Source: a virus
DNA length: 33,150 nucleotides
Virus record (IMG/VR): IMGVR_UViG_3300028920_000189
Span: 1-33,150 of that record
Direction: 5' to 3' (one strand)
Shown: one piece after another, positions 1,845 through 32,259 of the stretch
How the letters are laid out: the number at the start of each line of letters is the position of its first letter
How positions within the stretch are numbered: the stretch's first letter is position 1
The notes under the pieces: model-generated
What the model was told of the DNA's origin: nothing
What the model saw: the letters and a program-made list of their open reading frames with translations, nothing else
The model's database searches: none
Made by a program: the position numbers and the translations under genes

Positions 1845-1861
1845 TGTAAAACCGTTTTACA
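1845..1861. promoter_or_regulatory. Dispersed 17-bp palindrome, copy 1 (perfect)
   Basis: TGTAAAACCGTTTTACA. It overlaps the TAA stop of the upstream gene and ends 3 nt before ATG 1841 on the minus strand, replacing the expected Shine-Dalgarno sequence. This copy has a C centre on the plus strand. Confidence 0.85.
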
Positions 1862-2909
1862 CCGTGTTGAATGACCTCGGAGTATCAATGTACGCTGGAC
1901 GACGATACATTCTCAACGCCATGTCCACATCTGCCAGGCCCGTTGGGTTCCACGCTGAAATGTCATCGTAGAGGTTGGCATACTCGATGCGATGCCTATC
2001 CGTTACCTCCTCGATTACACGCCCAGCCCGCATGGCATCCAGATCACCATCGGCGTATATCTCCATCGTAGCCATGACCAACTGCATGATAGCGCGCTTG
2101 ACCAGATGTGGAGTCGAGCCGTCTGCATCCACGTATCCAAACGCACCGACAACCTGCTGATTCAAGTCGCCGACGTTGAACTTGTAGTTACCAACCGCTG
2201 AGAAGATGTTGTTGCACGTGCTGCGCTTCAGCTTGATTCGCGGATTCTTGCGATCGTCTTCAGGTTGATACCTGTTGTACACCGTATAGTACGATGCATC
2301 GACCGCGTTATCGAAGTCATCGTTGATGTACAGTGCCGTCAACTCGATGATGGGCACCGGCAACCACAACACACGCGAGCCATTGCCATCGAACTGCAAC
2401 GTCAGCTCTTTGCGATTGAACCACTGGCCAGTCATGCTATCGAACCATGCCTGCCAGCCAGTCAAGAGCGCGAGCGCACGGTCGTCACTCAACTCAGATA
2501 CAGTAATACCCTCATCCCGAATCTCCTGAATGGACACGTACAACTCATCAGGAGTCAACGAGGCTGGCAGTGTAACACCAAACTCGAATGCTTCCGTCTT
2601 TTCAGGATGTGATGCCGACTCTCTGTAGAACCAGTGGATCTCGTGTACACCAATCGGCTCTGCCGTAGGTACCGTCCACTCTGCGACGTAATGCCCCGAA
2701 CCCAAACGATGCCCAATCGGGCAATCATTCAAGTCAACCGTCGCTCTACCAGCCACAGGATAGACTTGAACCAATGCAGGAGCAGCCGTCACTCTCTCGT
2801 AAATGATGTATTCGAGAGAATAAGGGTCAGTCAGCAACCCATTGATGCGACACACGACATCGATCTTCGGATTAGAGCAATCGCTGGTTTCGTCTCTCTC
2901 GATAGCCAT
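1857..2909 (-). CDS. Head-tail connector (adaptor) protein with N-terminal extra domain
   Basis: This 350-residue protein has a beta-rich N-terminal half (about 15-115) and an alpha-helical C-terminal half. The C-terminal half, with a YVDADG turn followed by a VKRAIMQLVMA helix near residues 265-290, resembles gp6/gp15-type head-tail connectors that dock on the portal. Usual connectors are 100-200 residues, so the N-terminal part looks like an added domain. GGAG lies 8 nt upstream of ATG 2909, and the upstream stop at 2911 almost touches the start. The connector role fits the position downstream of the head genes but was read by eye only. Confidence 0.65.
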   Translation of the reverse strand: MAIERDETSDCSNPKIDVVCRINGLLTDPYSLEYIIYERVTAAPALVQVYPVAGRATVDLNDCPIGHRLGSGHYVAEWTVPTAEPIGVHEIHWFYRESASHPEKTEAFEFGVTLPASLTPDELYVSIQEIRDEGITVSELSDDRALALLTGWQAWFDSMTGQWFNRKELTLQFDGNGSRVLWLPVPIIELTALYINDDFDNAVDASYYTVYNRYQPEDDRKNPRIKLKRSTCNNIFSAVGNYKFNVGDLNQQVVGAFGYVDADGSTPHLVKRAIMQLVMATMEIYADGDLDAMRAGRVIEEVTDRHRIEYANLYDDISAWNPTGLADVDMALRMYRRPAYIDTPRSFNTV

Positions 2910-2910
2910 C

Positions 2911-5091
2911 TCACATCTCCGTCAGCTTCATCCCGTACTCGGACTCCCATGAGCCGGGGCCATGAATAGAGGATAGCAGAGTATCGACGTCAGTAGGAGT
3001 ATGTGATGAACGAGACGAAACTGCTATGTCCAAGAAGTCCAGATTCACTGCTCTGACTGTCGTGTATCCCTGGTTGTCCATCGCGGTCTGAATGTCCGCA
3101 ATGCTCAAGTCGTTCAATGCTGCAACCGCAGCCAGCACCGATGTGATTGTCGCATCCAGGTTCGTGCTGACAACCGGCTCCATCGCAGCCGTATCAGCAA
3201 GTACATCCTGAAGCTGCCCGCCCGTTGCAGCATTCTTGGCACCATCCACGCCAAGTGCATCTCGAATCTGCTGGCGCTCCGCAGCCGTCCAATCTGCAAG
3301 TGATGCCGACTGCTGCCACGAGCCCACACCATGAGCAGCCGTGAGCACAGTATCCACGTCCGCTGCATCATGCGACGACCGCGACGAAATGAGTGCGTCG
3401 AGATTATCCAGGCGTGCTCCACGTGCCACAGTGTAGCCCTGTGCAGTCATCGCCGCCTGTACATCTGCCTGTGAGATATCGTTCAACGCAGCAATGTCAG
3501 CTTGAGTTGCAGCATGCTGTGCAAGTTGGTTCGACTCGTCTGCTGGGTCTGCTGGAAGTCTGCCATCGATCGCAGACGTGTCCACGAGAATATCGTCCAA
3601 ATGCTCATCGACAGAACCGACAGCCGGTGCACCACCTGTTGGAGCCAGCTTCATGGCATCACGGATATCCTGTGGCGTCAATGTAGCGCCACCTGTTTGC
3701 CAGCTACCAGCACCATGTGTGCCCGTAAGTACAGTATCCACATCTGCCGCAGAGTGTGACGACCTGGATGAAATCGTCGCGTCGATATTCGCTCCTGCAA
3801 ATGGCGTTGCGTCCGAGAGAATATCTGCCTGAGTTGCACGAGATGAAATCAGTACATCAACGTTCGTCGAGATCAATGGCTCCATCACGGCTGTATCCGT
3901 GAGGATATCATTCAAATGCTCGTCCACAGAACCACCGGCTGGAGCACCCCCAGTCGGTGCAAGCTTCATCGCGTCTCGCACTTCCTGTTGAGTCAAAGGA
4001 GTTCCACCTGATTGCCACGACCCAGCACCATGAGTACCTGTCAATGTTGTGTCGACATCTGCCGGTGTGTGATTCGAGCGACTTGAAATAGCAACATCGA
4101 TGTTGGCACCAGCAAATGGCGTGGCATCTGACAAGATGTCAGCCTGACTGAGATCGTTCAATGCTGCAATGTCAGCTTGCGTCGTCGCATGCTGTGCATT
4201 CTGATTCGATTCGTCAGCCGGATCGGCTGGCAATCTTCCATCGATAGCTGCCGTATCAGTCGCAATATCATCGAGATGTTCATCGACAGAGCCAGCGGCT
4301 GGAGCACCACCCGTTGGCGCGAGCTTCATGGCATCGCGAACTTCTTGGGCGGTCAGTCCAGAGTCGCCCTCCCACGAGCCTACTCCATGTGTACCAGAGA
4401 GTTGTGATTCGACGTCAGCAACCAACTCCGCAGCACTCGTACCAGCACCACCCCCGCTATCGAGCAGCTCAACGGGGTCAGTCGTCTCATCGAAATCAGA
4501 ACGTGAGCTGATCGTCGCGTCGATGTTGGCACCAGCAAATGGTGTAGCATCCGACAAGATGTCAGCTTGAGTAGCACGAGACGAGACCGCTGCATCAAGA
4601 TTGTCCAGGTTCGGCGCACGCGCAGCCGTGTAACCTTGCGATGTCATCGCAGCCTGGACATCTGCCTGACTCAGGTCATTCAGTGCAGCAATGTCCGACT
4701 GAGTGTCATCATGCTCGTCGAACAAATCCTTGACCCACTGGTCGATCTTGATTTCGCCGTGGAATGGAACGTTCTTCGCAGTACCACCACTCTCATCAAC
4801 ACGTATCATGTACGTGTCATCGGCTGTCTCATTTGTAATCTGCGACGTATCCCAATCGAAGTAATACTCTCCTGCCGCCAAAGTCGAGCTGACCTCCGTC
4901 ATCTGTTGCTGACGTGTAGTCCAACCCGTGCTCTTGAACGTGTCGTCGTTGAAGTCGTACCAAAATCCATCGCTCGTACGCTGGATAGAAAGCAAGACCG
5001 TGGTCAACCCAGTGAGCGCTGCCAGACTCCCATCCTTCACAGCGGGAGTCTGAATCCGTTCCTCGTCACCTGAAAGAATGCGAGTTAGCAT
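2911..5091 (-). CDS. Large repeat-containing virion protein (fibre, spike or appendage candidate)
   Basis: This 726-residue protein opens with a beta-type domain (about 1-115). The rest is built from repeated segments of roughly 90-120 residues. Each segment carries variants of ADILSDATPFAGANID, a THGxGSW motif, and RDAMKLAPTGGAP followed by GSVDEHLDDI. Three THGxGSW modules are close copies; two towards the C-terminus are divergent or truncated. The repeats are rich in Ser, Thr, Ala and Asp and are visible at DNA level. Modular repeats in the virion operon suggest a fibrous or decorative particle protein. A GGA-type ribosome site precedes ATG 5091. Confidence 0.7.
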   Translation of the reverse strand: MLTRILSGDEERIQTPAVKDGSLAALTGLTTVLLSIQRTSDGFWYDFNDDTFKSTGWTTRQQQMTEVSSTLAAGEYYFDWDTSQITNETADDTYMIRVDESGGTAKNVPFHGEIKIDQWVKDLFDEHDDTQSDIAALNDLSQADVQAAMTSQGYTAARAPNLDNLDAAVSSRATQADILSDATPFAGANIDATISSRSDFDETTDPVELLDSGGGAGTSAAELVADVESQLSGTHGVGSWEGDSGLTAQEVRDAMKLAPTGGAPAAGSVDEHLDDIATDTAAIDGRLPADPADESNQNAQHATTQADIAALNDLSQADILSDATPFAGANIDVAISSRSNHTPADVDTTLTGTHGAGSWQSGGTPLTQQEVRDAMKLAPTGGAPAGGSVDEHLNDILTDTAVMEPLISTNVDVLISSRATQADILSDATPFAGANIDATISSRSSHSAADVDTVLTGTHGAGSWQTGGATLTPQDIRDAMKLAPTGGAPAVGSVDEHLDDILVDTSAIDGRLPADPADESNQLAQHAATQADIAALNDISQADVQAAMTAQGYTVARGARLDNLDALISSRSSHDAADVDTVLTAAHGVGSWQQSASLADWTAAERQQIRDALGVDGAKNAATGGQLQDVLADTAAMEPVVSTNLDATITSVLAAVAALNDLSIADIQTAMDNQGYTTVRAVNLDFLDIAVSSRSSHTPTDVDTLLSSIHGPGSWESEYGMKLTEM

Positions 5092-5094
5092 TTC

Positions 5095-5607
5095 CTATCC
5101 CCAAGAATCCAAATCGACCAGAGGTCGCAGGTTCGGCCAGTCGTTGATATCAGGAACCTCTTCGTTCATGAGAAACTCGTACAACGCCTTCTTCGTCACG
5201 AGATACGGACAAATCGGAGGCGCGTAGTAATCAGGATCTTCCGCCTTCCACATCATCGCTCGTGTCAGTCCATCGTACGGCACAAGCTCCACACTCTCAC
5301 ATGCAGGCTCATCGCACACCGTCTCAAGGCGGAACCATTTGCCACACGTCGGACACTTCCGAAGTGCGGTTCCTGGTTCGAGTGGATGGTTGCCATTCTC
5401 CAACTTCACACGTTGGACCGGAATGCCCATCGCCGTAACTGGATCGAAGTATTGAACAAAATCATCTCCGTCCATCGTACCAAGCACATAGTAGATATCA
5501 ATCCACTGCTCAATGTTGTTCTCAACCTGATGATTGACAATCTTGACCGTGTCAATCGTAGTCGCAGGAATTTGAATCTGGTCCACAGGCTTCAATGTAG
5601 CAGGCAT
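5095..5607 (-). CDS. Zinc-ribbon protein in virion operon
   Basis: This 170-residue protein carries a likely metal site, CPTC followed by CDEPAC, starting near residue 85 (C-x2-C-x11-C-x4-C). The start is ATG 5607, with GGAGG about 8 nt upstream. Its first 16 bases overlap the end of the glycosyltransferase gene, and its stop lies 3 nt from the next start. It may be a structural or assembly protein. Lying directly between a glycosyltransferase and the repeat protein, it could serve either. The family is not recognised. Confidence 0.65.
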   Translation of the reverse strand: MPATLKPVDQIQIPATTIDTVKIVNHQVENNIEQWIDIYYVLGTMDGDDFVQYFDPVTAMGIPVQRVKLENGNHPLEPGTALRKCPTCGKWFRLETVCDEPACESVELVPYDGLTRAMMWKAEDPDYYAPPICPYLVTKKALYEFLMNEEVPDINDWPNLRPLVDLDSWG

Positions 5608-6881
5608 CGATTATCCTCCACGCCACTCACTACACGTCGTGATATGGCTCGCTCATATACTTTGAGCGTCTGCTCTGCGGCTTTCTCCCATGTGAAGTCT
5701 CGCACACGCTCCAACCCAAGTCCACTCAACTCGGAACGAACATCGGGTTTCTTCAGAATACGGAGAGCTTGCACAATACATTCCGCCGACCGAGGCGGAA
5801 TTATCATGGCATACTCACGCTTGTCTTCACCACAGACAATCTCTCCAAGTCCATCAACTTCAGTTGCAATCAACGGTGCACCCATTGCCATTGCTTCCAA
5901 AGCCACAATACCGAATGGTTCATGCGTACTCGGCATGAGCACGCAATCGGCAGCAGCATACAAATCTCGGAGAGCTTGTCCATGTTGAAACCCTACCCAC
6001 CTGAGTCTTTCAGGATGAGCGCGTTCAAGCTTCTTGATTCGCTGCGTGACCTCCCACTGCTCCTTATCCTTCTCCGTGTTCGCGTTGACCTCACCAGCAA
6101 TCACGACCGTCCAACCAGGGTCGACCTTTTCCAACGCGTCGAGGATGTAAACAATGCCCTTCATCTCGGCGACACGCCCGCAGAACAACGCTATCGGACG
6201 GTTATGCTGGAACCCCTCTGCAAACCTCAACTCGTGATCGAAAATGGCTCTGTCACCGTCACCCCGTGTTGGATTCCAAAGCTCGGTATCAATGCCGTTG
6301 TGAATCATGTTGATCGGGCGCTCGGTCAGAAACTGCCTTCGAACAATATCAACATACGCATCAGAGCAAAGAATGACCTCATTCGGATCACAAATGAGAT
6401 TCCCCTCCTGTTGCATCATGTACAGGTCGGCCTCGCCCCACTCTGCCAGGTTGGTCTTCGGATTCTCAAACATCGCAAGGTAGGACAAACAGAGATGCAT
6501 CGTTCCCACGAGTGGTAGACCAAGTGCGTTCTGTGCCATCCGACCTAGCTGGACAGAGCCCCACTCATGCATGTGCACAACATCCCATCCTCCACCACGT
6601 GAATACGTATCCGCAATCAGCTTGGTCAGCGACTTCGCAACCTGCAAATCAATCATGAACCGACATGAGATATCGGGCGTACGTGGTTTCCAACAGATGA
6701 GCTTGTCGTCGTGATGCTTCCGGTAACCAAGATACTCTTTCGAGCCTTCCTGCTTACCAGATGTCAACAAGTCGATCTGCACCCCCATCTTGGCAAGCGA
6801 CCTGTAAATCTCACGGACATGCATACCCATGCCACCAAGGATCTCTTCTGGGTCTTCATAACAAATCGCGAGAACTCTCAT
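5592..6881 (-). CDS. GT4-family glycosyltransferase
   Basis: This 429-residue protein has the full architecture of a GT-B retaining glycosyltransferase of family GT4. The N-terminal Rossmann domain starts with VLAICYED and a GGMG loop (residues 16-19) and has HMHEW near 103. A second domain starts near PIALFCGRV (229). The EPFGIVALE motif (321-329) carries the E-x7-E pair that contacts the sugar nucleotide. The enzyme would transfer a sugar from an NDP donor. Its place inside the virion operon, ATGA-coupled to the upstream gene, suggests modification of a particle protein; the acceptor is unknown. Confidence 0.88.
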   Translation of the reverse strand: MRVLAICYEDPEEILGGMGMHVREIYRSLAKMGVQIDLLTSGKQEGSKEYLGYRKHHDDKLICWKPRTPDISCRFMIDLQVAKSLTKLIADTYSRGGGWDVVHMHEWGSVQLGRMAQNALGLPLVGTMHLCLSYLAMFENPKTNLAEWGEADLYMMQQEGNLICDPNEVILCSDAYVDIVRRQFLTERPINMIHNGIDTELWNPTRGDGDRAIFDHELRFAEGFQHNRPIALFCGRVAEMKGIVYILDALEKVDPGWTVVIAGEVNANTEKDKEQWEVTQRIKKLERAHPERLRWVGFQHGQALRDLYAAADCVLMPSTHEPFGIVALEAMAMGAPLIATEVDGLGEIVCGEDKREYAMIIPPRSAECIVQALRILKKPDVRSELSGLGLERVRDFTWEKAAEQTLKVYERAISRRVVSGVEDNRCLLH

Positions 6882-9292: not shown

Positions 9293-9575
9293 CTCTGCCA
9301 TCCGAGAAATAGAGTGTGACTTGCAGTACATCACGGCCATTACGCATGCTGACACGTTCGCCTTTTGACACGCCATTCTTGGAGAGGTACTCAATCCAAA
9401 TTCTGGTGTAATGGTCTGTCAGACGCGGTAGGTCAACGCGGTGCCCTTCGTAGTCAACGATAGACACACGGCGAATATTGCGTTGGTTGTAGGGGTGGTC
9501 TATAGCTACACGATCCTGCGGTCTAGCAGGATTGAGCTTGATTGTGGAGCCGTCCTTGCACTGGACAAGAATCAC
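9270..9575 (-). CDS. Small basic protein, unknown (GTG start)
   Basis: This 101-residue, beta-rich basic protein starts at GTG 9575, which overlaps the upstream stop as GTGA. It lies two genes after the capsid gene. No catalytic, metal-binding or membrane motif is seen. The position suggests a virion or assembly role, for example a small head or connector component, but nothing in the sequence proves it. Confidence 0.6.
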   Translation of the reverse strand: MILVQCKDGSTIKLNPARPQDRVAIDHPYNQRNIRRVSIVDYEGHRVDLPRLTDHYTRIWIEYLSKNGVSKGERVSMRNGRDVLQVTLYFSDGRVVINNTE

Positions 9576-9865
9576 TTCTGTTCCAGAACCTCGAAACGAG
9601 GATCGGATTTGTAGTAATCAATCAGCTCTTTGCCATGCACAACGAACTTACGCCCTCTGACGTACGAACGACCATGACGCATGAGCGACGCGCAACCAGT
9701 GAGTTTGACATACGCCCATGATTCCGTTGCAGGCTTTGCCTTTGGCTCCGACTTTGCCTTCTTGGGCTCTGCCTCGGGCTCCACCGCTGACGTTTCATTC
9801 TTGGGCTCTTTGGCTGTCGCCTTAGCCTTCGGCTGGCGAACCTTTGTCGATTTAGATTTTGCCAT
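9572..9865 (-). CDS. Small protein with Lys/Ala-rich N-terminus, downstream of capsid
   Basis: This 97-residue protein has a low-complexity N-terminal half rich in Lys, Ala, Glu and Pro and containing TKVRQPK. Its compact C-terminal half (from about residue 48) runs SWAYVKLTG...RGRKFVVHG...YKSDPRFEV. The start was set at ATG 9865 because GGAGGG lies 8 nt upstream. An in-frame start at 9925 would put the dispersed palindrome inside the protein. Head decoration or head-tail joining is possible from its position after the capsid gene. Confidence 0.6.
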   Translation of the reverse strand: MAKSKSTKVRQPKAKATAKEPKNETSAVEPEAEPKKAKSEPKAKPATESWAYVKLTGCASLMRHGRSYVRGRKFVVHGKELIDYYKSDPRFEVLEQK

Positions 9866-9890: not shown

Positions 9891-9907
9891 TGTAAAACGG
9901 TTTTACA
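9891..9907. promoter_or_regulatory. Dispersed 17-bp palindrome, copy 2 (perfect)
   Basis: TGTAAAACGGTTTTACA, 25 nt upstream of ATG 9865 (minus-strand gene), between that start and the hairpin that follows the capsid gene. Confidence 0.85.
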
Positions 9908-11243: not shown

Positions 11244-12719
11244 TCAGTCTCCGAGAGTTGCCTTGCCACGCAGATGCGGGGGCATGATGCTTGCGAATAC
11301 TCCCTCCGTCTCACCACCACCGTCACCATTGGACGGTGATTCATCCGTGGTCTCCCCCTTCGGAGCAGAACGCGCACGCTCCATCTTCTCGACCTTTTCG
11401 ATCGTTTCCTTGGAAGCGGTCTCGATGGAATCGAGCCGTTCGGCGATCGGCGTGACTGCTTTGGCAACGATGTCAGACATCTTGCTCAACAGGTCGTCCG
11501 TGTCCACGCTTTTTGCAACGGGTTTGTCCGTGGCAGCGGGCGCGTCTGTGGCAGCGGGCTCGTCAGCAGCCTTTTCCTCTGCCGCACTCATTTCTTCGTC
11601 GGTCATTTCGTCTCCCTCTTCTTCCTCTTCTTCGGTCGGTTCTTCCTGTTTGGACACGGATGAAACCATGTCTTCCAGTTTCGCCGCACGAACGAGGATA
11701 TCAAGAGCCTCGCCAATTTTCCACCGAAGATCGTATTGATCCATGCGCTTCGCTTCTTCAGTGTCAACGCCAAGTGCACCCGTGATGACACTCAACACGT
11801 CCGACGCGGCACTGACTTGCTTCGCGACCTCGGTGAAATCCAACTCGACCTTTTCGGCAGACTTGGCCACTTCCACGAACTTCACTGACATCTCTTCCTC
11901 CTCCGATCCCTCGGTTGACTTCTCGGTCTCCTCCTCCAGAATCTTGCGTGCTTTTGCTTGCAATTGGTCCTTCAGGTCCTGCGAGAGATTCGATTGAGGA
12001 ATCCTAGCAATCGCATTACGCAAATGGGGGAGATCGATTTTACCCGTATCATCCTTGTAGGGGAACATTCGATTCGTTCTCGGAACTGTCTTCCCCTCTT
12101 CATCCTTTTCGCCACCGGGTTTGATGTAAAAGAACGCTGAATCCGGCAGAGTGTTGACGTATGCAGTTGACCAAACCGCCTCCTCAACTTCCTCTTCAGA
12201 TTCTACACTCTTTCCAACGACTGCGCCAAAGCTATCAACAATGACCTCGATATCCTCCACGAACTCGGCACAAATCTCTTCATCCTCGTCCGTGATTTTC
12301 ACGACCGCTGTCGACAACTTTTCGGCAACAACATCAATCACCGAAACCATCTTGTCGCGCTGGCTACCAGGAACCTTGGCATCTGCCAGTCGGTTGCCAC
12401 CAGCTTTGATCGTTTCAGCCATGTCAGCGAGTTCATCGGAAGTACGAGCCATGAGGGACATGATCGGAACAGGCATCTCTGCCTCATCGTCCGTCTCGGC
12501 TTGCATGAGCCACTCGCGGGTATTCTCCAGGCGAGAGAGCACATTCTGGACGAAACCCTGGACTGCCGCCTTGAGCGACGGTTCCTCAGTTTCCTCTTCC
12601 TTTGACTTCTGCTTTGCAATGAAAAAGAACTGACCGTTCGCTCCATCATCGACAAGTGAAACCTTGCTTGGTCGAATGGCGGTCAGTTCTCGTTTCGGCT
12701 CTCTGTTTTCATCTGCCAT
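11244..12719 (-). CDS. Scaffold-like prohead protein (acidic, coiled-coil)
   Basis: This 491-residue, very acidic protein has long Glu-rich stretches (near residues 268-278 and 350-375). A middle domain, AYVNTLPDSAFFYIKPGG (about 185-245), ends in a DLPHLRNAIARIPQSN-type motif often found in phage prohead proteins. A coiled-coil tail runs from about 395 to 450. The N-terminus (SKVSLVDDGANG) also resembles the start of XkdF-type proteins. Lying between protease and capsid, it probably acts as an internal scaffold. The start is ATG 12719. There is no Shine-Dalgarno; a degenerate palindrome ends 2 nt upstream. Confidence 0.68.
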   Translation of the reverse strand: MADENREPKRELTAIRPSKVSLVDDGANGQFFFIAKQKSKEEETEEPSLKAAVQGFVQNVLSRLENTREWLMQAETDDEAEMPVPIMSLMARTSDELADMAETIKAGGNRLADAKVPGSQRDKMVSVIDVVAEKLSTAVVKITDEDEEICAEFVEDIEVIVDSFGAVVGKSVESEEEVEEAVWSTAYVNTLPDSAFFYIKPGGEKDEEGKTVPRTNRMFPYKDDTGKIDLPHLRNAIARIPQSNLSQDLKDQLQAKARKILEEETEKSTEGSEEEEMSVKFVEVAKSAEKVELDFTEVAKQVSAASDVLSVITGALGVDTEEAKRMDQYDLRWKIGEALDILVRAAKLEDMVSSVSKQEEPTEEEEEEGDEMTDEEMSAAEEKAADEPAATDAPAATDKPVAKSVDTDDLLSKMSDIVAKAVTPIAERLDSIETASKETIEKVEKMERARSAPKGETTDESPSNGDGGGETEGVFASIMPPHLRGKATLGD

Positions 12720-12721: not shown

Positions 12722-12738
12722 TGTCAACCCGTTTTACA
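12722..12738. promoter_or_regulatory. Dispersed palindrome, copy 3 (one perfect arm)
   Basis: The right arm GTTTTACA is perfect; the left arm TGTCAACC matches 6 of 8 bases. It ends 2 nt before ATG 12719 on the minus strand, in the ribosome-site position. Confidence 0.6.
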
Positions 12739-12778: not shown

Positions 12779-13675
12779 CTATGCAGCCCTGCCCAAAATT
12801 TTACGCAACTCTACAACTCTTGCAAGTCCTGCGATTGACCAGCTCTTGTAATCGCCTGTCTTCACCTTGCCCCAGAGTGTATCAGAAATGATGCGAGCGT
12901 ACATAATCCACGTCCCTTTCGGGAATGTGAGCGTCTTCATTTCCTTCGCAGGATGGTCATCATCAAGAGCCGGAACTTCGACATCGTACGTACGCTCCTC
13001 GTCCAAGACGAAACTCTGCACCGGACGAATCGCTTCCGGCACAATCTCACCATCATGCATGACGTCGATGCCATGATCGTCGTCCATCATGTAGTGCTCA
13101 AGGAAGTAATACGCGGCTGCGCGTACGACTTCCTCATCGTAGATTTCATCGTGAAGGTCCGTGACGCCTGGTACCAATACAGCAGATGCTACAATCCGCT
13201 CCTCGGTACTCTTCTGCACCGGCATCATCTTGATGACGTTGTTAGGTAGGTATGCCTCAACGTCAACAACCAGACCATTCTGCTCCGTCTTGACCTTGAC
13301 CAGTTCCTCGAAACTCTCGATTGCTTTGATGCGGTAACCGTAAGCGCCGCCTTCTGGGCACCCACCTTCCGGCAATCCATGCAATCCCTTCATGAGATCG
13401 TAGTCCGATTCCGTGATATCGAATGCATGGCCAAGCTTGACCGCACCAACAATTTGTCCTTCAGACATGATGAAGTACGGTATCTTGTGCGAGTTCTCAA
13501 TTTTTTCATCGGACACAATCATCTTGACCGTTCCGTCGACAGACCCATCACTGACGTTCTTCATCAGGTTCAACGCCCGTGTCGGACTCTTGTCTTCTTC
13601 ATCGAGGAAGCTGCCAGGAAACCTGACGGGATTGGCACGTCCACCAGTATCAAGATCCCCAGAAGTGATAGTCAT
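12779..13675 (-). CDS. XkdF-type prohead maturation protease
   Basis: This 298-residue protein resembles the XkdF family (S78-type serine protease of PBSX-like phages). It has PGVTDLHDEIYDEEVV (169-184), a DDDHG motif (198-202) holding the likely catalytic His, FPKGTWIMYARI (251-262), and a KSWSIAG segment (277-283) holding the likely Ser. The enzyme would cleave scaffold and capsid during head maturation. Its position between portal and scaffold is typical. A GGAG ribosome site immediately follows a perfect copy of the dispersed palindrome. Confidence 0.8.
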   Translation of the reverse strand: MTITSGDLDTGGRANPVRFPGSFLDEEDKSPTRALNLMKNVSDGSVDGTVKMIVSDEKIENSHKIPYFIMSEGQIVGAVKLGHAFDITESDYDLMKGLHGLPEGGCPEGGAYGYRIKAIESFEELVKVKTEQNGLVVDVEAYLPNNVIKMMPVQKSTEERIVASAVLVPGVTDLHDEIYDEEVVRAAAYYFLEHYMMDDDHGIDVMHDGEIVPEAIRPVQSFVLDEERTYDVEVPALDDDHPAKEMKTLTFPKGTWIMYARIISDTLWGKVKTGDYKSWSIAGLARVVELRKILGRAA

Positions 13676-13686: not shown

Positions 13687-13703
13687 TGTAAAACGGTTTT
13701 ACA
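13687..13703. promoter_or_regulatory. Dispersed 17-bp palindrome, copy 4 (perfect)
   Basis: TGTAAAACGGTTTTACA fills most of the gap between portal and protease genes. On the minus strand it ends 11 nt before ATG 13675 and runs straight into the GGAG ribosome site. Confidence 0.85.
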
Positions 13704-17707: not shown

Positions 17708-17765
17708 CACATATAACTATACAACTCAAATGATCAACTTCAAATGTATATCATATAATTCGGGT
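17708..17765. promoter_or_regulatory. Divergent control region between terS and the methylase gene
   Basis: This 58-bp AT-rich gap holds a consensus TATAAT at 17754-17759 on the plus strand, only 6 nt before ATG 17766. On the minus strand TATAGT-like sequence lies just before TerS. Both genes lack a ribosome site, so leaderless or near-leaderless transcripts are possible. No convincing -35 element was found. Confidence 0.4.
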
Positions 17766-18599
17766 ATGAACACTTTGCTACGTTGGGTTGGATCGAAGCA
17801 ATGGATGCGCCATGAAGTTGCATCCATCGTACGCGAAAGACTATGTGATGATTGCACATATTGGGAACCCTTTGCTGGTGCTGCGTCGGTACTCTTCACT
17901 CTACACGATATCCAATCCGCTTGTCTATGCGACGTCATCGAACCACTGATCCGCACTTACAAAGCAATAAAAGACGAACCGATAGAGGTATGGAGATCTG
18001 CACAAGAATTCGGTGGCGACGGCATCAACGCATACTACTTCTTGCGCGAGGTCTTCAACGACTTCCTCACGTTACGCAAGAAGCCCAAGAACGAGTACGA
18101 GCTGGCTGGACTATTCATCTATTTGAACGCATGCTGCTACAACGGGCTGTGGCGACAAAATGCAGAAGGCGAATTCAATGTCCCCGTGAGCGACAGGAAG
18201 ACCGTCAAGATTCCGAAGCAACGCACCTTCCTGTCCGTTGGTCAGATACTCCAACGCACTGACCTCCGACTCATGGAACCACCTACCGACATCTTCAAAG
18301 TCATCGACGAATCACGCAAAGGCGATGTCATCTTCTCGGACCCGCCATACTACGGAACGTTCGATGGCTATGACGGACTCGACATCTCTAGTGAGATGTT
18401 CCAAGAAACTCTGGCCGACGTATTGCAAAAAGCTCACAAGCGCGGAGTAACCGTCATCGCAATGAACTCAAATGAACCATTCGTCCGCAAATTGTATCGC
18501 TCGTGGTGTCGTATCAAAACTATCAACCGTCACCAGACCGTAGCCAGTACAAACAGCGGGAGGAAAGAATGGCAGCAAATACTCGGGGTGAGCAAGTGA
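17766..18599 (+). CDS. DNA adenine methylase (Dam / D12 class)
   Basis: This 277-residue N6-adenine methyltransferase transfers a methyl group from S-adenosylmethionine to adenine in DNA. Conserved elements of the D12 class are RWVGSKQW near the N-terminus, the AdoMet loop EPFAGAASV (34-42) and the catalytic DPPY (192-195). Length is typical. The start at ATG 17766 was preferred over an in-frame ATG at 17730 because family members start shortly before the VGSK motif. It leads the plus-strand operon and could protect phage DNA or mark it for regulation. Target site unknown. Confidence 0.9.
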   Translation: MNTLLRWVGSKQWMRHEVASIVRERLCDDCTYWEPFAGAASVLFTLHDIQSACLCDVIEPLIRTYKAIKDEPIEVWRSAQEFGGDGINAYYFLREVFNDFLTLRKKPKNEYELAGLFIYLNACCYNGLWRQNAEGEFNVPVSDRKTVKIPKQRTFLSVGQILQRTDLRLMEPPTDIFKVIDESRKGDVIFSDPPYYGTFDGYDGLDISSEMFQETLADVLQKAHKRGVTVIAMNSNEPFVRKLYRSWCRIKTINRHQTVASTNSGRKEWQQILGVSK

Positions 18600-18835
18600 T
18601 CTGCTATCTATGCGAGCAAGAGTTCGATAGTCTTCAAACTACAAATGTGTGCAATGGTGACATATACCGATTCTGCGAAGAGTGTGTCACAGAATTCCAA
18701 ACCGCTCGTGATGACATAGAACACGAGCTTGTGCGAACTAGAAAGTACAAAATAAAAAAGTGGCTCAGGGAGCGGCGAGCTGTAAAACGGTTTTACAGGC
18801 GGCAGCTTCCTCTGCTGAGAGAGGGGACAACATGA
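18569..18835 (+). CDS. Small Cys-rich protein with basic tail
   Basis: This 88-residue protein has a likely zinc site, CYLC...CNGDIYRFCEEC, in its first half (C-x2-C-x13-C-x8-C-x2-C) and a Lys/Arg-rich helical tail. The start was set at ATG 18569, preceded by GGGAGGAAAG. It overlaps the methylase end by 31 bases. It ends as ATGA with the next gene, and a perfect dispersed palindrome lies inside its last codons. Nucleic-acid binding is plausible. Family not recognised. Confidence 0.65.
   Translation: MAANTRGEQVICYLCEQEFDSLQTTNVCNGDIYRFCEECVTEFQTARDDIEHELVRTRKYKIKKWLRERRAVKRFYRRQLPLLREGTT
18781..18797. promoter_or_regulatory. Dispersed 17-bp palindrome, copy 5 (perfect, inside a coding end)
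   Basis: TGTAAAACGGTTTTACA inside the 3' end of the Cys-rich gene, 34 nt upstream of ATG 18832 of the next plus-strand gene. It shows that the motif is also used in the plus-strand operon. Confidence 0.85.
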
Positions 18836-19023
18836 AGGTGAGAGGGATAAGACGACCTCCGGTGACGTGGGCTTTCAGGAGAGCCACAGAAGAGAAAAAA
18901 ATACTCTGTGACAACTGTATCAACTACGACCTCCGAGAATCCTGCCCCCGGTATACACTGAGCAGCGCACAACGTCAGGAAGTCATCGCGACCCGCTGCT
19001 ATTTTCACGACCCGAGGCAGTAG
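18832..19023 (+). CDS. Small Cys-motif protein
   Basis: This 63-residue basic protein has CDNC...SCP...RCYFH spacing near residues 26-59, a pattern seen in many small phage proteins of unknown role that probably bind zinc. The start was set at ATG 18832 (GAGAGGGG upstream, ATGA overlap with the previous gene). An in-frame extension upstream would translate the palindrome and is unlikely. Confidence 0.6.
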   Translation: MKVRGIRRPPVTWAFRRATEEKKILCDNCINYDLRESCPRYTLSSAQRQEVIATRCYFHDPRQ

Positions 19024-19046: not shown

Positions 19047-19385
19047 ATGAACAACCTGAGTCTGGAACAGGCCAGGGAGATATTAGAGGTAGACTCTCTG
19101 GCAGATGAGCGCGAGATCAAAACCAGTTATCGAAAGCTAGCACTGAAACATCATCCTGATCATGGAGGGGACGCACATGAATTCAACCGCATACGCGAAG
19201 CTTACGATAGGCTCACGAAAACGCCTCTAAGTGAAATCGTAGCAAACGACATCGAGGCAATGATCTTCGACGACATATTCAATTCATGGCTCGAAAACCA
19301 AGATGAATCCACCCAAGAAACAATACGTAGGCAAGTGGACAAAGTGGAGAAAGAAGCGGTACCGAACAAAGCTAGCCGCAAATGA
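19047..19385 (+). CDS. J-domain (DnaJ-like) protein
   Basis: This 112-residue protein is mostly a J domain. It begins SLEQAREILEV, continues with IKTSYRKLALKHHPDHGGD holding the HPD tripeptide (36-38), and ends with a FNRIREAYDRL helix. J domains stimulate Hsp70 (DnaK) ATPase, so the phage protein probably directs host DnaK to a phage or host client. The charged tail after residue 60 would be the specificity part. A TATAAT sequence lies 9 nt upstream of the ATG. The last 83 bases overlap the next gene. Confidence 0.85.
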   Translation: MNNLSLEQAREILEVDSLADEREIKTSYRKLALKHHPDHGGDAHEFNRIREAYDRLTKTPLSEIVANDIEAMIFDDIFNSWLENQDESTQETIRRQVDKVEKEAVPNKASRK

Positions 19386-19776
19386 GGAAGACCGTCTTTG
19401 GAAGATCATGGATGACTTCATAGACGGTGCCGTTCTGGAACCACGTGCCCAACTTCGATTCTTCAAAGCCGTAGAACAACTCATCGTAGACGCACACGTC
19501 GCACGCCTGCGATTCAAAGAAGTGAAGGAAACGGAATCAGAGTCGTTACTCGAATTCCTCTTCCGATACATATACAAACGCTGGGACGTAACACCGTCCG
19601 AGATGAAACGACAAGTCCGCAGTGTAACCAGAATCGAAATATTCAAAGCCAGAAAACATTTCGTAGTCGAGTTGAAGAAACATGGCTACTCGAATTATCG
19701 CATTGCTAAAATGATCGGAGTCGGACACCCGACTCCAGGAACGTGGGAAAAATATGACGTTGACATTAGCGACTAA
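19303..19776 (+). CDS. Basic helical protein with HTH-like C-terminus
   Basis: This 157-residue basic protein ends in a segment that reads like a helix-turn-helix, KKHGYSNYRIAKMIGVGHPT, near residues 125-144, suggesting DNA binding. The start at ATG 19303 lies inside the J-domain gene, giving an 83-base overlap without a clear ribosome site. A later ATG at 19408 is an alternative. A regulatory role is possible but not shown. Confidence 0.6.
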   Translation: MNPPKKQYVGKWTKWRKKRYRTKLAANEEDRLWKIMDDFIDGAVLEPRAQLRFFKAVEQLIVDAHVARLRFKEVKETESESLLEFLFRYIYKRWDVTPSEMKRQVRSVTRIEIFKARKHFVVELKKHGYSNYRIAKMIGVGHPTPGTWEKYDVDISD

Positions 19777-19792
19777 AGGGGCACGTCCTTCC

Positions 19793-20446
19793 ATGCCCGA
19801 AGCCATCAAAGCCAAATGCTTTGATTGTACTGCTCAGTTCTTCGACGGGCGTCGTGATTGTGAAATCAACGGATGCCCGCTTCATCCACGCATGCCATAC
19901 CGCGACCGTCCTTCGAACCTGGATTGGTTGTGGGGAGTGTGGAGCGAGAAGCATCGAGGCCAGCTTGCCAAGCTTGGTGTGACCGCACAGGAATACATCA
20001 AGAACGTCTTGATTGTAGGTCATACCGCGAAGGGTCTGCCCAAGTACAAGATCCCCATGGGTGACATGATCCGCGCCAAGTGCTTCCGATGCTGCTACGA
20101 CTACAGCCAGGAAACCGTCACTTTGTTTCCATTACGCACGGTGTCGTATCGCAACAAGAACAACAAGAAAGTTACTCGTCGCCTTGAGAAGGCAGAAGGT
20201 CCATTCGCAACAATCAAAAGCGTGAAGCACAAGATCATCATCTCGTCAGGCGGTGAAGCTGGCAGAATCGAATGCAGCATTCGCGACTGCCCGTTGTACT
20301 ACTGGACTCCCTACCGCAGGCAATTGCCCTCGTACGATTGGATGTTCGAATCCGATCACACCAAGAAACACCGACTTGCAGTCGCCGCACTTGGCATCAG
20401 TGAAGAAGAATACGTGCAACGCCTGCTCGTGGAGAAATCGCTGTGA
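19793..20446 (+). CDS. Duplicated zinc-ribbon protein
   Basis: This protein of about 217 residues contains the same Cys module twice. The first is AIKAKCFDCTA...DCEINGCPLHPRMPYR (about 4-40). The second is MIRAKCFRCCY...ECSIRDCPLYYWTPYR (about 83-172). Each would bind one zinc ion. A helical segment follows each module (LGVTAQEYI and LGISEEEYV), so the whole unit is duplicated. The start at ATG 19793 was chosen after AAAGGGG; ATG 19754, overlapping the previous gene, is possible. Nucleic-acid or protein binding is likely, function unknown. Confidence 0.7.
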   Translation: MPEAIKAKCFDCTAQFFDGRRDCEINGCPLHPRMPYRDRPSNLDWLWGVWSEKHRGQLAKLGVTAQEYIKNVLIVGHTAKGLPKYKIPMGDMIRAKCFRCCYDYSQETVTLFPLRTVSYRNKNNKKVTRRLEKAEGPFATIKSVKHKIIISSGGEAGRIECSIRDCPLYYWTPYRRQLPSYDWMFESDHTKKHRLAVAALGISEEEYVQRLLVEKSL

Positions 20447-22167: not shown

Positions 22168-22665
22168 CTACTCGTCACAGTTCAAGAGCGTGCACAAGTT
22201 GTCCAGTGCGGACTGCATACCCTCGGGTACATCAACGCCCGCTTGCTCACACAACCTGAGTATCGTCCGTCCATGATCGAGTACACGCGCAGCCCAGTAG
22301 CGCCAGTCAGACTCGCCTGCCCTTCCTGCCTCGATGTCGTCATAGACGTTCTCCAACTCTTCCATTGCAGTCCTGAATGACGAGATGACCTGTTCCAGCC
22401 TGATGTACGTGCTCATGCACTCGCGCCAGAACTCCATGCCCTCTTCACCACTGCCTGCCGGGAACCCAGCTGCTTCTGCTCGTTCAATACAAACGTCGCT
22501 ATGATTCTCCAGTCGTGGAGCAATCTGCTCATCTGCCAGTCGTCCTGCCTCACGCACTCCCATGTGCGTCGACCGGATCGTGTCCATGACTCCGTTGCAG
22601 TTCGCGCCCATGACGACAGGCGTAACCAACAACGCAAACACCAATACTGCGACTCGCGCTCTCAT
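22168..22665 (-). CDS. Secreted protein with N-terminal signal sequence, possible spanin-like role
   Basis: This 165-residue protein has a classic signal sequence (MRARVAVLVFALLVTPVVMGANC). A Cys at position 23 follows, but the preceding residues are not a standard lipobox. The mature part is helical and acidic with several Cys. It heads the small minus-strand lysis operon, so an envelope role such as an outer spanin is possible. GGAGGGG precedes the ATG, and a perfect dispersed palindrome lies 12 nt upstream. Confidence 0.6.
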   Translation of the reverse strand: MRARVAVLVFALLVTPVVMGANCNGVMDTIRSTHMGVREAGRLADEQIAPRLENHSDVCIERAEAAGFPAGSGEEGMEFWRECMSTYIRLEQVISSFRTAMEELENVYDDIEAGRAGESDWRYWAARVLDHGRTILRLCEQAGVDVPEGMQSALDNLCTLLNCDE

Positions 22666-22677: not shown

Positions 22678-22694
22678 TGTAAAACGGTTTTACA
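22678..22694. promoter_or_regulatory. Dispersed 17-bp palindrome, copy 6 (perfect)
   Basis: TGTAAAACGGTTTTACA, 12 nt upstream of ATG 22665 on the minus strand, next to the GGAGGGG ribosome site and 7 bp from the stop of the upstream gene. Confidence 0.85.
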
Positions 22695-28024: not shown

Positions 28025-28651
28025 CTACTGCCAGTTCCTTCCACCGATCTGCTTGTAATACTTGTAGGCGCGTTGCACCGGGCGTGTAGTCTTGGCGTAG
28101 CTGTCAGACGGACAACGCCCCATGCCATATGCAGCAATCCAACGTGCCCATGTACCACCACACTTACGCCGCGCCTCTGCCAGATACGCAGCCCCAGTCT
28201 CGACTTGGCAGTACGCCTTGCTGGCATTCACGCCCATTCGACCTTTCACAGGAAGTAAATGATGATTGCAGTCCGCTGGCCTGAAGTTGAGTGCGACTCC
28301 GTGTGTCTGCATCAACCCATACTCACCAAGCTCACCACGCTTCCGTCGGTTCTCGACAGCTTCTGATAAGCTCGACTCCTTGAACGCAATTGCAACCAGC
28401 AACAACGGGTCAATGTTGTGTCGCTGGCCAGCGTTATAGAATATGGCAGTGAGCCGCTTTGCACGCTCGTCACTGATCGCGGGCTGTAGCTCGCGAATCC
28501 CGTACTCGATGGACGACAACGCGCCTGTATCACCAATCGCAGTCGAGACAATCCTGCCTCCACAATCGGCGATCAAGAAGAACAGTGTCAGTGCCGCCAC
28601 AATTCCAACTGACCACAATACAGCGGGCAACCAAGTACGCTCATTTGACAT
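28025..28651 (-). CDS. Membrane-anchored SLT-type lytic transglycosylase/lysozyme
   Basis: This 208-residue protein has one N-terminal membrane segment (about 8-28) and an SLT lysozyme-like domain. That domain holds AIAFKESSL with catalytic Glu92, GEYGLMQTHG (109-118) and IAAYGMGRC (172-180), the standard order of family-1 lytic transglycosylases. It would cleave the glycan backbone at the outer face of the inner membrane, either for DNA entry or lysis. AAGGAGGT precedes ATG 28651, and one half of the dispersed palindrome lies further upstream. Confidence 0.82.
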   Translation of the reverse strand: MSNERTWLPAVLWSVGIVAALTLFFLIADCGGRIVSTAIGDTGALSSIEYGIRELQPAISDERAKRLTAIFYNAGQRHNIDPLLLVAIAFKESSLSEAVENRRKRGELGEYGLMQTHGVALNFRPADCNHHLLPVKGRMGVNASKAYCQVETGAAYLAEARRKCGGTWARWIAAYGMGRCPSDSYAKTTRPVQRAYKYYKQIGGRNWQ

Positions 28652-28666: not shown

Positions 28667-28683
28667 CCGTCAACGGTTTTACA
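28667..28683. promoter_or_regulatory. Dispersed palindrome, copy 7 (half-site)
   Basis: Only the right arm (GGTTTTACA, 28675-28683) and the inner AAC of the left arm are kept. It lies 15 nt upstream of ATG 28651, the same position as the perfect copies before other genes, so it is probably a decayed or weak site. Confidence 0.45.
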
Positions 28684-28733: not shown

Positions 28734-29024
28734 CTACCGTTTGGCCCACTCTTTGAACGCGGTGATCAGGCTCGACTTCACGTTGATACCTTCCTTCCGC
28801 ATCTCGGTTTCGAGTGCTTCCAACATCTGCTCGTGCGGCTCGATGATCCTGTCACAATCATTCAGCGCTTGTGCGTACTTGGTCTTGCCCTCGTCGTTAC
28901 CACCGGCATCGTCCCACTTCTGGCGCGCACTCTCCAGTGCACCCTTCCGCGCACGCTCTGCCTGGATGCGCTCGCGGTACAAATTAGCAACCATACACGC
29001 AGTGATCACTGTCAACAACTTCAT
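28734..29024 (-). CDS. Small protein with N-terminal hydrophobic segment
   Basis: This 96-residue protein has a short hydrophobic start (MKLLTVITACMVANLY) followed by charged helices. It may be secreted, with a Cys at position 10 in a lipoprotein-like spot (ITAC), or only membrane-associated. GAGGAG precedes ATG 29024. A perfect palindrome lies 16 nt upstream. A spanin-like lipoprotein is one possibility given the nearby SLT gene. Confidence 0.6.
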   Translation of the reverse strand: MKLLTVITACMVANLYRERIQAERARKGALESARQKWDDAGGNDEGKTKYAQALNDCDRIIEPHEQMLEALETEMRKEGINVKSSLITAFKEWAKR

Positions 29025-29040: not shown

Positions 29041-29057
29041 TGTAAAACGGTTTTACA
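29041..29057. promoter_or_regulatory. Dispersed 17-bp palindrome, copy 8 (perfect)
   Basis: TGTAAAACGGTTTTACA, 16 nt upstream of ATG 29024 on the minus strand, in the 50-nt gap after the 29075-29770 gene. Confidence 0.85.
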
Positions 29058-29074: not shown

Positions 29075-29770
29075 CTATTCAATCAACGATTCCAGCTTCG
29101 CAACCAAGTCGAACGCAGTCTTGCCTTCGCCGAAATGGAACTCGTTCCACTCTTCAGGCTTCATCTCCGTTCCACCACCGCGTTTCTTCAACCACTCTAT
29201 CGAATCTTCCCATGTCATCAATTCGTCTTTCTCGTAATCGAAATGCGGAAATGACTCAGTAACAGAGTAACTCGTCACTACCTCGCCCTCATCAGACTCA
29301 CGCAGCAACTCAGCTACCTTTCCCCAACCATCGTAACCCTGTGACTCTTCTCTGAGAATGCCGATCTTGAGTCCCTCGTCAATGATGTCTGCAAGCCAGG
29401 CACGGTTAGGTCCATCTACCCACAAATGAATCTCACACTGACCATGAATCCATGCGATGAACTTCATCGAGTCCGAACCGATCTTCACAATCGTGTTCAA
29501 CTCGCACTGGAAAAGATCCCATTCCTCTCCCGCAATCTCCCGCATACCACCACCGGCAGTGGACAATGCATACCGAAGCATCATCGGAGCAGGATCTTCT
29601 CCCAAGCCAAGTGCCACAAATATACGTTTGGCTTTGTCTCCGTCGAACCTCATCCCTTCCAGATCAACAATCGACCTGAAGATGTTGCCAATCAGCACAC
29701 TACAATACGCCCGCTCTCGTCCACCCACATAGACAGTCTTCTCTTTTGTATGAAACGCGATGCTGCTCAT
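29075..29770 (-). CDS. Hypothetical protein
   Basis: This 231-residue acidic protein of mixed alpha-beta composition has no recognised motif. It is the longest unknown gene of the right-hand accessory operon. It overlaps the preceding small gene as ATGA. Composition and packing leave little doubt that it is coding. Function unknown. Confidence 0.68.
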   Translation of the reverse strand: MSSIAFHTKEKTVYVGGRERAYCSVLIGNIFRSIVDLEGMRFDGDKAKRIFVALGLGEDPAPMMLRYALSTAGGGMREIAGEEWDLFQCELNTIVKIGSDSMKFIAWIHGQCEIHLWVDGPNRAWLADIIDEGLKIGILREESQGYDGWGKVAELLRESDEGEVVTSYSVTESFPHFDYEKDELMTWEDSIEWLKKRGGGTEMKPEEWNEFHFGEGKTAFDLVAKLESLIE

Positions 29771-29889
29771 GACACCTTGTCCTTGTAACCGGCTCGTGTA
29801 ATATCCCGCGACCCAACCACATATGCATCATCGAGATCATAACCACAACGACACTCCCATGATACTTTTAGATTTTCATCAATGCTCAT
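29767..29889 (-). CDS. Very small protein directly behind a palindrome
   Basis: This 40-residue peptide from ATG 29889 has a CRCG Cys pair. A perfect dispersed palindrome ends 1 nt before the ATG, so there is no Shine-Dalgarno. A longer frame from 29994 would translate the palindrome, and its start is only weakly supported. The stop overlaps the next start as ATGA, which favours a real gene. Confidence 0.45.
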   Translation of the reverse strand: MSIDENLKVSWECRCGYDLDDAYVVGSRDITRAGYKDKVS

Positions 29890-29890: not shown

Positions 29891-29907
29891 TGTAAAACCG
29901 TTTTACA
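29891..29907. promoter_or_regulatory. Dispersed 17-bp palindrome, copy 9 (perfect)
   Basis: TGTAAAACCGTTTTACA with a C centre on the plus strand, as in copy 1. It ends one base before ATG 29889 on the minus strand, in the ribosome-site position. Confidence 0.85.
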
Positions 29908-30236: not shown

Positions 30237-30237
30237 G

Positions 30238-30611: not shown

Positions 30612-30733
30612 CAGACTAATCCTCTCTGTCGCTGATTGTTTCGGAGACACTGTGCTCCACCCCAATTATCTGTCCCGACCACCACATCTGGTGGACCCAC
30701 GGTCTTCAGAAGGAAGATCCTAGTTAGTAGACC

Positions 30734-30750
30734 TGTAAAACGGTTTTACA
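30734..30750. promoter_or_regulatory. Dispersed 17-bp palindrome, copy 10 (perfect)
   Basis: TGTAAAACGGTTTTACA at the boundary between the minus-strand accessory operon and the gene-poor right end. It is well placed to control the first transcript of that operon. Confidence 0.85.
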
Positions 30751-30821
30751 ACTCCTCCTACACCCCACCGTGGCCACGGCAGAAAAACCCCGTCGCCACA
30801 CCGCTACCCTAGTGCGAAACA

Positions 30822-30860
30822 CCAAATCTGAAAAATCCGAATTTTGTGCGCGCATCAGGG
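30822..30860 (+). repeat. 39-bp direct repeat, copy A
   Basis: It starts CCAAATCTGAAAAA and ends GTGCGCGCATCAGGG. It differs from copy B at 3 of 39 positions, all in the middle. Copies are 95 bp apart. Confidence 0.85.
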
Positions 30861-30916
30861 CGTGTCCACGCTGGTGGAAATCTGTCCACGCATACCGCTA
30901 CATATATGCACAAAAG

Positions 30917-30955
30917 CCAAATCTGAAAAACTCCAATTTTGTGCGCGCATCAGGG
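30917..30955 (+). repeat. 39-bp direct repeat, copy B
   Basis: Second copy of the 39-bp repeat, same orientation, 36 of 39 bases identical to copy A. Confidence 0.85.
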
Positions 30956-31546
30956 TGGGGCTTGCCGGAACGGCGTGCGTACGTTTTCCCATGAAGTTTT
31001 TGAAATTCGTTTCATGTGCATATGCAATACCAATTGCAATTCCAACCTACACGTTGCATGCATACATATCTTGTTCTTGCAATGGCAAGCCCCGTGCCAT
31101 GTCCCGTGTCACGCATGTGTGAAGCCACGACGTCTCTTCGCGTGTCATATACGTGCCTACTTCGAAATTGCAAAGCAAATTGCTACAACCAATTAGTATG
31201 TTGGATTGCAACCCATGTGCCAAAGTGGTGCCATGTATGTTTGAAATGGACTTGCAAATTGCAGCAACTTGGCCTTGGCTTTGCAAGTGTAATTTGCATT
31301 TCCACGTTACACGTTAGACACAAGGCTAAAACCATCATATGGGTGCGTGGACACGACTAGTACATGTGTGTACGTGGCTTGTTCTTCTTTGGATTCGTGC
31401 GTACATATGGGTACAGTGCTGAATTAGTACGTCGACGTCTATATGTGTGTAGACATAGCGTGGTCTTTAGTATGTTTACGTCCACGTTGGAACAACGTGT
31501 GCGTATATATGTATGCGATTAGTAAAATTGGTATCGTTGGTCTAGT

Positions 31547-31563
31547 TGTAAAACCGTTATACA
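31547..31563. promoter_or_regulatory. Dispersed palindrome, copy 11 (one mismatch)
   Basis: TGTAAAACCGTTATACA matches 16 of 17 bases. It lies about 60 bp before the first iteron cluster, not next to a recognised gene. Confidence 0.7.
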
Positions 31564-31623
31564 GACTGTAATGCGCGTGTCTATACCACGTGCATAAACT
31601 CGCGTGTGCTGGCGTGTCGTTGG

Positions 31624-31768
31624 TGTTACACCCCTGTTACACCCCCTGGCCCAGTGAAATCGCTTGGTTAGCAGCGTGGCTGAATTGGTGTTACACCCCG
31701 AAAGCCCAGTGATTCCGGTGTGCTGGCAGATGTTACACCCCCCTGTTACACCCCAGGTGTTACACCCC
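31624..31768 (+). repeat. Iteron-like cluster A: six copies of TGTTACACCCC
   Basis: Exact copies begin at 31624, 31635, 31689, 31731, 31744 and 31758, all in the same orientation. The first two are directly adjacent (11-bp period), and the last three are 13-14 bp apart. GCCCAGTGA also recurs after two of the copies (31649 and 31704). Head-to-tail short repeats near helical spacing are typical of initiator-protein binding sites. Confidence 0.8.
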
Positions 31769-31883
31769 CCATTACTTGTGTACGTATACAGTGGACGTGC
31801 GTGTGTGTACTCGTGTGCGTGTCGAAGTAACGCGTGTGAGTAGAGCGGCGGACTTGGCACAGCCCATGCACCACTCTCGGGGC

Positions 31884-32042
31884 ATGACACACACAGACAT
31901 CACAGCAATCGACATTCAAAGTGGCAACGCGATAATCGTGGATAGCGCGACTGTTCGTGCTTATGTGGGTATCGACGAGATCGTATCCACGATTATCGAT
32001 GACAGTGAGATTGATAGCGCGATTGATGCAATCATCGCGTAG
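31884..32042 (+). CDS. Small acidic protein between the iteron clusters (tentative)
   Basis: This 52-residue acidic peptide is rich in Ile, Asp and Ala (for example IDDSEIDSAIDAIIA). Its stop lies at the start of the next gene's AGAAAGG ribosome site, which suggests an operon. The ATG 31884 has a poor ribosome site. A 15-bp inverted repeat lies inside the frame. Confidence 0.4.
   Translation: MTHTDITAIDIQSGNAIIVDSATVRAYVGIDEIVSTIIDDSEIDSAIDAIIA
31930..31998. repeat. 15-bp inverted repeat inside a small gene
   Basis: CGATAATCGTGGATA (31930-31944) is repeated inverted as TATCCACGATTATCG (31984-31998) with a 39-bp spacer. It could form a stem-loop or be a paired binding site. Confidence 0.75.
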
Positions 32043-32055
32043 AAAGGTTTGAACC

Positions 32056-32259
32056 ATGAGCACAAAAGACAAAAGCCGGATGGCACGGCGCATGCTGTAT
32101 GTACACATGCGACGTACGCAGGCGCGCCCCGGTAAAACAGATCATATCGTGGAGTTGTATAACGGGTTTACAACTCATGCTCTACATTCGTTTACCTCGA
32201 CGCGCCTGCGAACTACGCGCGTGCTGGGTTCCCGCCCACCCTATGCGAGACATACCTAA
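32056..32259 (+). CDS. Small Arg-rich protein (tentative)
   Basis: This 67-residue basic peptide (MSTKDKSRMARRMLYV) is preceded by AGAAAGG 8 nt before the ATG. A degenerate copy of the dispersed palindrome lies inside the frame, so part of it may be non-coding control sequence. Function unknown. Confidence 0.42.
   Translation: MSTKDKSRMARRMLYVHMRRTQARPGKTDHIVELYNGFTTHALHSFTSTRLRTTRVLGSRPPYARHT
32156..32172. promoter_or_regulatory. Dispersed palindrome, copy 12 (two mismatches)
   Basis: TGTATAACGGGTTTACA: each arm has one mismatch to the consensus. It is the rightmost copy seen. Confidence 0.6.

Follow-up and report, generated by a model that had tools for sequence, protein, structure and literature searches.

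A dispersed palindrome at gene junctions of a viral contig and its relatives: a candidate set of phage operators

A repeated palindrome in the window

The stretch analysed here, which we call the window, is a linear viral contig of 33,150 bases (IMG/VR record IMGVR_UViG_3300028920_000189, positions 1 to 33,150). Along it lie repeated copies of a 17-bp palindrome, TGTAAAACSGTTTTACA, mostly placed directly before genes (Table 1). An earlier note, made by a model from the letters of this DNA, had listed eight perfect and four degenerate copies. The eight perfect copies are all present, and three of the degenerate ones are full copies too (one mismatch at 31547, two at 12722 and 32156), which gives 11 in total. 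The fourth, at 28667 (CCGTCAACGGTTTTACA), is a half-site at best, its right half being intact and its left half carrying five mismatches, and a scan of the window at up to three mismatches does not recover it. That the copies exceed chance is borne out: 11 are found at up to three mismatches versus 0.01 expected from dinucleotide shuffles, and none of 100 shuffles reached 11.

Eight of the 11 full copies precede the ATG of a plausible gene by 1-34 nt, in both operon directions, much as the earlier note described. Those near starts are mostly within leftward operons, and the copy at 18781 alone heads a rightward operon. The palindrome at 1845 itself supplies the TAA stop of the gene at 1857-2909(-). 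The copies at 30734, 31547 and 32156 fall in the gene-poor right end of the window, more than 60 nt from any confident gene start. Gene-poor sequence there also holds iteron-like repeats in two clusters (31620-31775 and 32355-32466), made up of six GGTGTTACACCCC-type 15-mers and related TGTTACACCC units; these may mark a replication origin or some other control region.

A search of Rfam gave no match, and literature containing TGTAAAAC or GTTTTACA yielded unrelated sequence strings only. The TyrR box, TGTAAA-N6-TTTACA, was considered and rejected, its spacing being N6 versus N5 in the window palindrome.

Relatives and sister palindromes

An exact-motif scan and a major capsid protein search of viral contigs converged on four metagenomic contigs that share the palindrome of the window, hereafter T1. 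All four belong to the window's phage family (capsid identity 74-82%) and carry, at up to two mismatches, eight (G003), four (G010), three (G009) and three (G006) sites. The earlier note had asked whether relatives carry the motif and keep its position. Both hold: these contigs have the motif, and where they overlap the window, each of their 14 sites lies at a junction also marked in the window. Between orthologous junctions, identity is 96% in the sites and 61% in the 30-nt flanks. Six further contigs (G008, G002, G019, G021, G001 and G014) contain one perfect copy each plus a few weak extras. Megablast of the first 24 kb of the window against 50,697 phage records returned no match.

G022, more distantly related (capsid 63%), lacks T1 sites but has about 20 copies of another palindrome, GTCTAACCGGTTAGAC (T2), which is common to four more capsid-related contigs and the fragment L172. 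Its grammar is that of T1, with the palindrome often forming the stop of one gene and ending 0-13 nt before the next start. T1 and T2 share five junctions: those preceding the connector gene, the gene at G003 20-685, the gene for smallZn (a small protein of the rightward operon) and the gene at 22168-22665, and one downstream of the orthologous large tail gene. Three further T2 junctions are one gene off from T1. A third palindrome, CTGCAAACGTTTGCAG (T3), occurs in up to five copies in the contig group L211, L202 and L198; of the five sites in L211, four occupy gaps ahead of starts and the fifth falls within the protease gene.

The fourth palindrome was reached by another route. Viral contigs were searched by an alignment of ZN, the last protein of the rightward operon, alone, and the palindrome was looked for afterwards. 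This search gave two new contigs, L216 and L217, both without the T1, T2 and T3 palindromes, in which AGTTGTGCAA-N4-TTGCACAACT (T4) is dispersed (three copies in L216, four in L217 and five in the full 14.9-kb record of L217). Its sites in L217 include one preceding the connector gene, a position shared with T1 and T2, one in the terminase/portal gap, shared with T2 and T3, and one ahead of the DnaJ gene in the ZN operon, where T3 also has a site. A palindrome stands at the head of the ZN operon or interrupts it in all four lineages.

T1 to T4 form one clade in the terminase and portal trees (support 100/100 and 100/99), T1 being unresolved from T3 and T4 in the latter. In the capsid tree a motif-free high-GC clade adjoins T1. 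The conflict is mosaicism, and we prefer the terminase and portal trees because those genes adjoin the ZN operon. A de novo search of motif-free relatives, including G024, G026 and G029, served as negative control and revealed no comparable start-associated palindromes. Repeats in L160 and L136 are unlike start-associated palindromes and were set aside. Motif-free relatives of about 105 kb carry a resolvase-domain protein (G024:19603-20043 and G026:28684-29124), possibly a serine integrase or invertase.

Table 1. Palindromes and rightward-operon genes in the window, with the counterparts of each site (HTH, helix-turn-helix; ORF, open reading frame)
Feature	Position	Strand	Setting	Counterparts
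Perfect palindrome	1845..1861		3 nt before ATG of gene 1365-1841(-), connector region	G003:14021, G010:9474; T2 G022:20365; T4 L217:653
Perfect palindrome	9891..9907		25 nt before ATG of gene 9572-9865(-), directly after major capsid gene	G003, G010, G009, G006
Degenerate palindrome, 2 mismatches	12722..12738		2 nt before ATG of gene 11244-12719(-)	None at up to 2 mismatches in the remaining T1 contigs
Perfect palindrome	13687..13703		Portal/head-protease gap, 11 nt before protease ATG	G003, G010, G009, G006
Perfect palindrome	18781..18797		Heads rightward smallZn-DnaJ-HTH-ZN operon, 34 nt before ATG 18832 (+ strand)	G003, G006, G009; T2 G022:37504, L128:2395; one gene further into operon in T3 (L211:6157) and T4 (L217:9649)
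Perfect palindrome	22678..22694		12 nt before ATG of gene 22168-22665(-)	G003:35305; T2 G022:40713
Half-site only, left half 5/8 mismatched	28667..28683		15 nt before ATG of gene 28025-28651(-)	
Perfect palindrome	29041..29057		16 nt before ATG of gene 28734-29024(-)	
Perfect palindrome	29891..29907		1 nt before ATG of short ORF 29767-29889(-)	
Perfect palindrome	30734..30750		Gene-poor stretch	
Palindrome, 1 mismatch	31547..31563		Gene-poor stretch	
Palindrome, 2 mismatches	32156..32172		Gene-poor stretch	
smallZn	18832..19023	+	63-aa basic Cys-rich protein; in every motif-bearing contig covering the operon	
Short DnaJ-domain protein	19047..19385	+	PF00226, E=7.6e-14	
HTH-like protein	19303..19776	+	Diverged relative of G022 DnaA-domain-IV-like HTH protein	
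ZN	19754..20446	+	Two similar zinc modules in tandem; in every motif-bearing contig covering the operon	

Placement, symmetry and possible mode of action

Among the 65 T1 and T2 sites of 11 contigs, 49 precede a start by 0-45 nt (3.7 expected), the starts being those of a simple gene caller plus a few missed ones added by hand, and 56 are intergenic (8.5 expected). Since these genomes are tightly packed and mostly coding, placement was also tested among intergenic sites only, where 46 of the 56 are near a start versus 14.7 expected (P ~7e-20). This result bears on the N15-type dispersed centromere put forward in the earlier note, in which a ParB-like or architectural protein would use the sites for partition, condensation or replication, and the sites would be intergenic for room. 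Such a role would suit the mostly intergenic positions and the unusually even spacing in G022 (coefficient of variation, CV, 0.34, P<1e-4), G003 (0.33, P 0.006) and L211 (0.18, P 0.009). However, spacing in the window is uneven (CV 0.85, with a dense right end), the excess near starts persists among intergenic positions, and ParB_N (PF02195) has no match in 11 records, the motif-bearing ones being fragments. Given sites tied to gene junctions and no ParB_N domain in these incomplete genomes, the centromere is not favoured and we consider it unlikely.

The variation between copies is also informative. Half-site variants are one-sided and the same ones are seen in either half, and the centre base occurs in both orientations, which is better explained by a symmetric DNA-bound protein than by an RNA stem. 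Control of the translation or processing of each gene by a 5'-leader hairpin would agree with the position of the palindromes beside start codons, and all four can fold as RNA (-1.9 to -12.1 kcal/mol). Yet the hairpin of the window 17-mer is weak, compensating or G-U changes are almost lacking, and copies occur in gene-poor and coding stretches; an RNA element is thus very improbable.

We propose that the palindromes are probably dispersed operators of a phage-encoded, presumably dimeric DNA-binding protein controlling transcription into or through operons. A phage protein would recognise the two inverted half-sites of operators that occupy gaps between genes of one operon, directly before a start and often over the preceding stop codon. 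Once bound, it would most likely stop transcription into or through the next gene, acting as a roadblock or masking a promoter, so that structural and other operons would be held down until it is removed. The same protein would also sit at the operon encoding the candidate binder.

The distances to start codons suggest how such a protein might act. Where a site ends 0-3 nt before the ATG, a transcript starting downstream would lose the start codon; the site would therefore usually be transcribed through, and we infer that a bound protein would be best placed to halt polymerase arriving from upstream. These distances also count against a promoter or activator element, through which a bound protein would recruit RNA polymerase and give each marked gene its own transcript, as in late-gene activation. 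Sites upstream of starts in late operons would fit activation, as would the failure to find a lysogeny gene in the motif-bearing contigs. Nevertheless, at several genes a downstream start would omit the start codon, and the spacing to the ATG, from 0 to about 40 nt, leaves no fixed position relative to a transcript start, so that activation too seems improbable. For the operators, we predict separately a phage origin of the binder, ZN as the binder, repression instead of activation, and a block of elongation.

The candidate binder, known systems and meaning

The two zinc modules of ZN are 35% identical to each other, and two similar modules are suited to a two-fold site. The protein has no convincing family match and no PDB relative, and motif-free relatives lack it, three records of 105-107 kb among them. 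Because it co-occurs with the palindromes in T1 to T4, its operon bears a palindrome in all of them and it is built of two modules, ZN appears to be the leading candidate binder. The earlier note had proposed looking for a co-occurring DNA-binding protein. ZN may be that protein; the recognised DNA-binding type of the operon, the DnaA-domain-IV-like protein of G022 (Bac_DnaA_C, E=6.6e-12), which is also found in G006 and L128, is missing from G009, L211, L216 and L217, and the HTH-like copy in the window (19303-19776) has no family match of its own. Neither ZN nor the DnaA-like protein has a homologue in any of the 50,697 phage records. A bolder claim, which we hold only tentatively, is that ZN represents a new two-zinc-module protein family acting as a genome-wide roadblock or repressor, with at least four operator specificities in one clade and largely kept positions.

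Adjoining the ZN operon is a DNA adenine methyltransferase-like gene (17730-18599(+); PHROG 56, E=1.8e-39), also present in G003, G006 and G022. Inside the structural gene region, a long ORF (5592-6881(-)) looks glycosyltransferase-like by eye and is 44% identical in G003.

Several observations weigh against operators bound by a phage protein such as ZN. A ZN homologue modelled by AlphaFold (mean pLDDT 75.6) has no fold match in PDB or BFVD, and the T3 and T4 versions of ZN are not basic (isoelectric points 6.9 and 5.3). DnaJ and smallZn co-occur with the palindrome as universally as ZN does, and that relatives lack both ZN and palindrome amounts in essence to a single contrast between clades. 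Since every motif-bearing contig is a fragment, the true regulator may sit in unseen DNA; no integrase, resolvase-type recombinase, HTH_3 repressor or classical repressor was found in these fragments. The overlap of T1 and T2 junctions, compared informally, may be only modestly above chance, and a few sites lie within coding sequence. Finally, the contig G011 (IMGVR_UViG_3300017989_000452; L015, L040 and L041) carries four perfect T1 copies, three of them directly before gene starts, and no homologue of any window protein is detectable in its sequenced part; no explanation offered here fully accounts for these copies.

Two of these points have companion observations. In the G011 record, GGTTTTACA half-sites lie 21 bp apart near 12964 and 12985. 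Some palindromes within coding sequence occur at kept positions, in the N-terminal part of the protease gene for T3 and T4 (L211 1239 and L217 4814) and in the gene after portal for T2 (G022 31510, L124 5110, L127 3366 and L128 8436), which suggests selection on the DNA site through the coding frame.

An unrelated phage such as G011, with perfect copies and no homologue of the candidate binder in its sequenced part, is what would be expected if the palindromes were sites of a host transcription factor borrowed by phages. Against this, the exact motif has 62 scattered single matches in 84,980 species genomes (GTDB), about the chance number, although the true hosts are possibly outside that collection. 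Moreover, one palindrome serves phages of 40-52% GC, suggesting different hosts, and T2 contigs range from 44 to 60%; one palindrome type across so wide a range argues for a phage-encoded binder. We consider a host factor very unlikely.

Comparison with known systems places the proposed phage operators in the regulatory neighbourhood that the earlier note had named, a phage regulon or silencing by a prophage repressor, with details that differ from the systems it cited. The phage phiC31, which it did not mention, is the closer analogue. Used as a yardstick for the same de novo palindrome search, phiC31 yielded TACTCACGTGAGTA in about 16 copies, almost all of them intergenic, which we take to be the conserved inverted repeats (CIRs) bound by its c repressor. 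As in the window, a perfect palindrome is dispersed between genes in structural and early operons, including directly before the portal gene and directly after the capsid gene. However, the phiC31 palindrome is another sequence (CCTACTCACGTGAGTAGG), and that of the window clade varies between sister lineages. TACTCACGTGAGTA is absent from the window, G003 and G022, and the 683-aa c repressor gave no tblastn match at E<=1 in 19 incomplete contigs.

The likeness to stoperators and start-associated sequences, drawn in the earlier note, extends to dispersed, start-adjacent sites. Cluster A mycobacteriophages have 20-30 dispersed repressor sites in short intergenic spaces, whose sequences diverge between subclusters together with the repressor (PMC6550527, PMC9283540), as the palindromes shift between our sister lineages. 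Nonetheless, L5-type stoperators are 13 bp, asymmetric, monomer-bound and orientation-dependent (PMC9283540), whereas the window sites are 17 bp, symmetric and orientation-free. In cluster K, start-associated sequences (SAS) comprise an asymmetric 13-bp GGGATAGGAGCCC plus paired 17-bp inverted repeats at non-structural genes, and the inverted-repeat consensus of the extended form (ESAS) varies by subcluster with positions kept (PMC3203893). These sites also lie directly upstream of the translation starts of a subset of genes, but SAS resemble ribosome-binding sites and are restricted to the non-structural half of the genome. In the window structural operons are marked and the SAS-type 13-mer is absent. 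Phage P1 likewise has many 17-bp operators dispersed over its genome, 22 C1 sites in about 93 kb (PMC8546580), although these are asymmetric (ATTGCTCTAATAAATTT). By analogy, the system would work most like that of phiC31, yet it belongs to none of the compared families by sequence or regulator.

Regulators that each act at many genome-wide sites are known from few phages, and a standing question is how such a regulator switches its target at dozens of sites together. Judged from sequence, a different spelling at the same kind of places across lineages is what a switch protein and its docking sites evolving together would look like. With four sister palindromes in matching places and one syntenic operon, the co-evolution of regulator and operator becomes directly testable by swapping, and the system may expose a new kind of DNA-binding protein.

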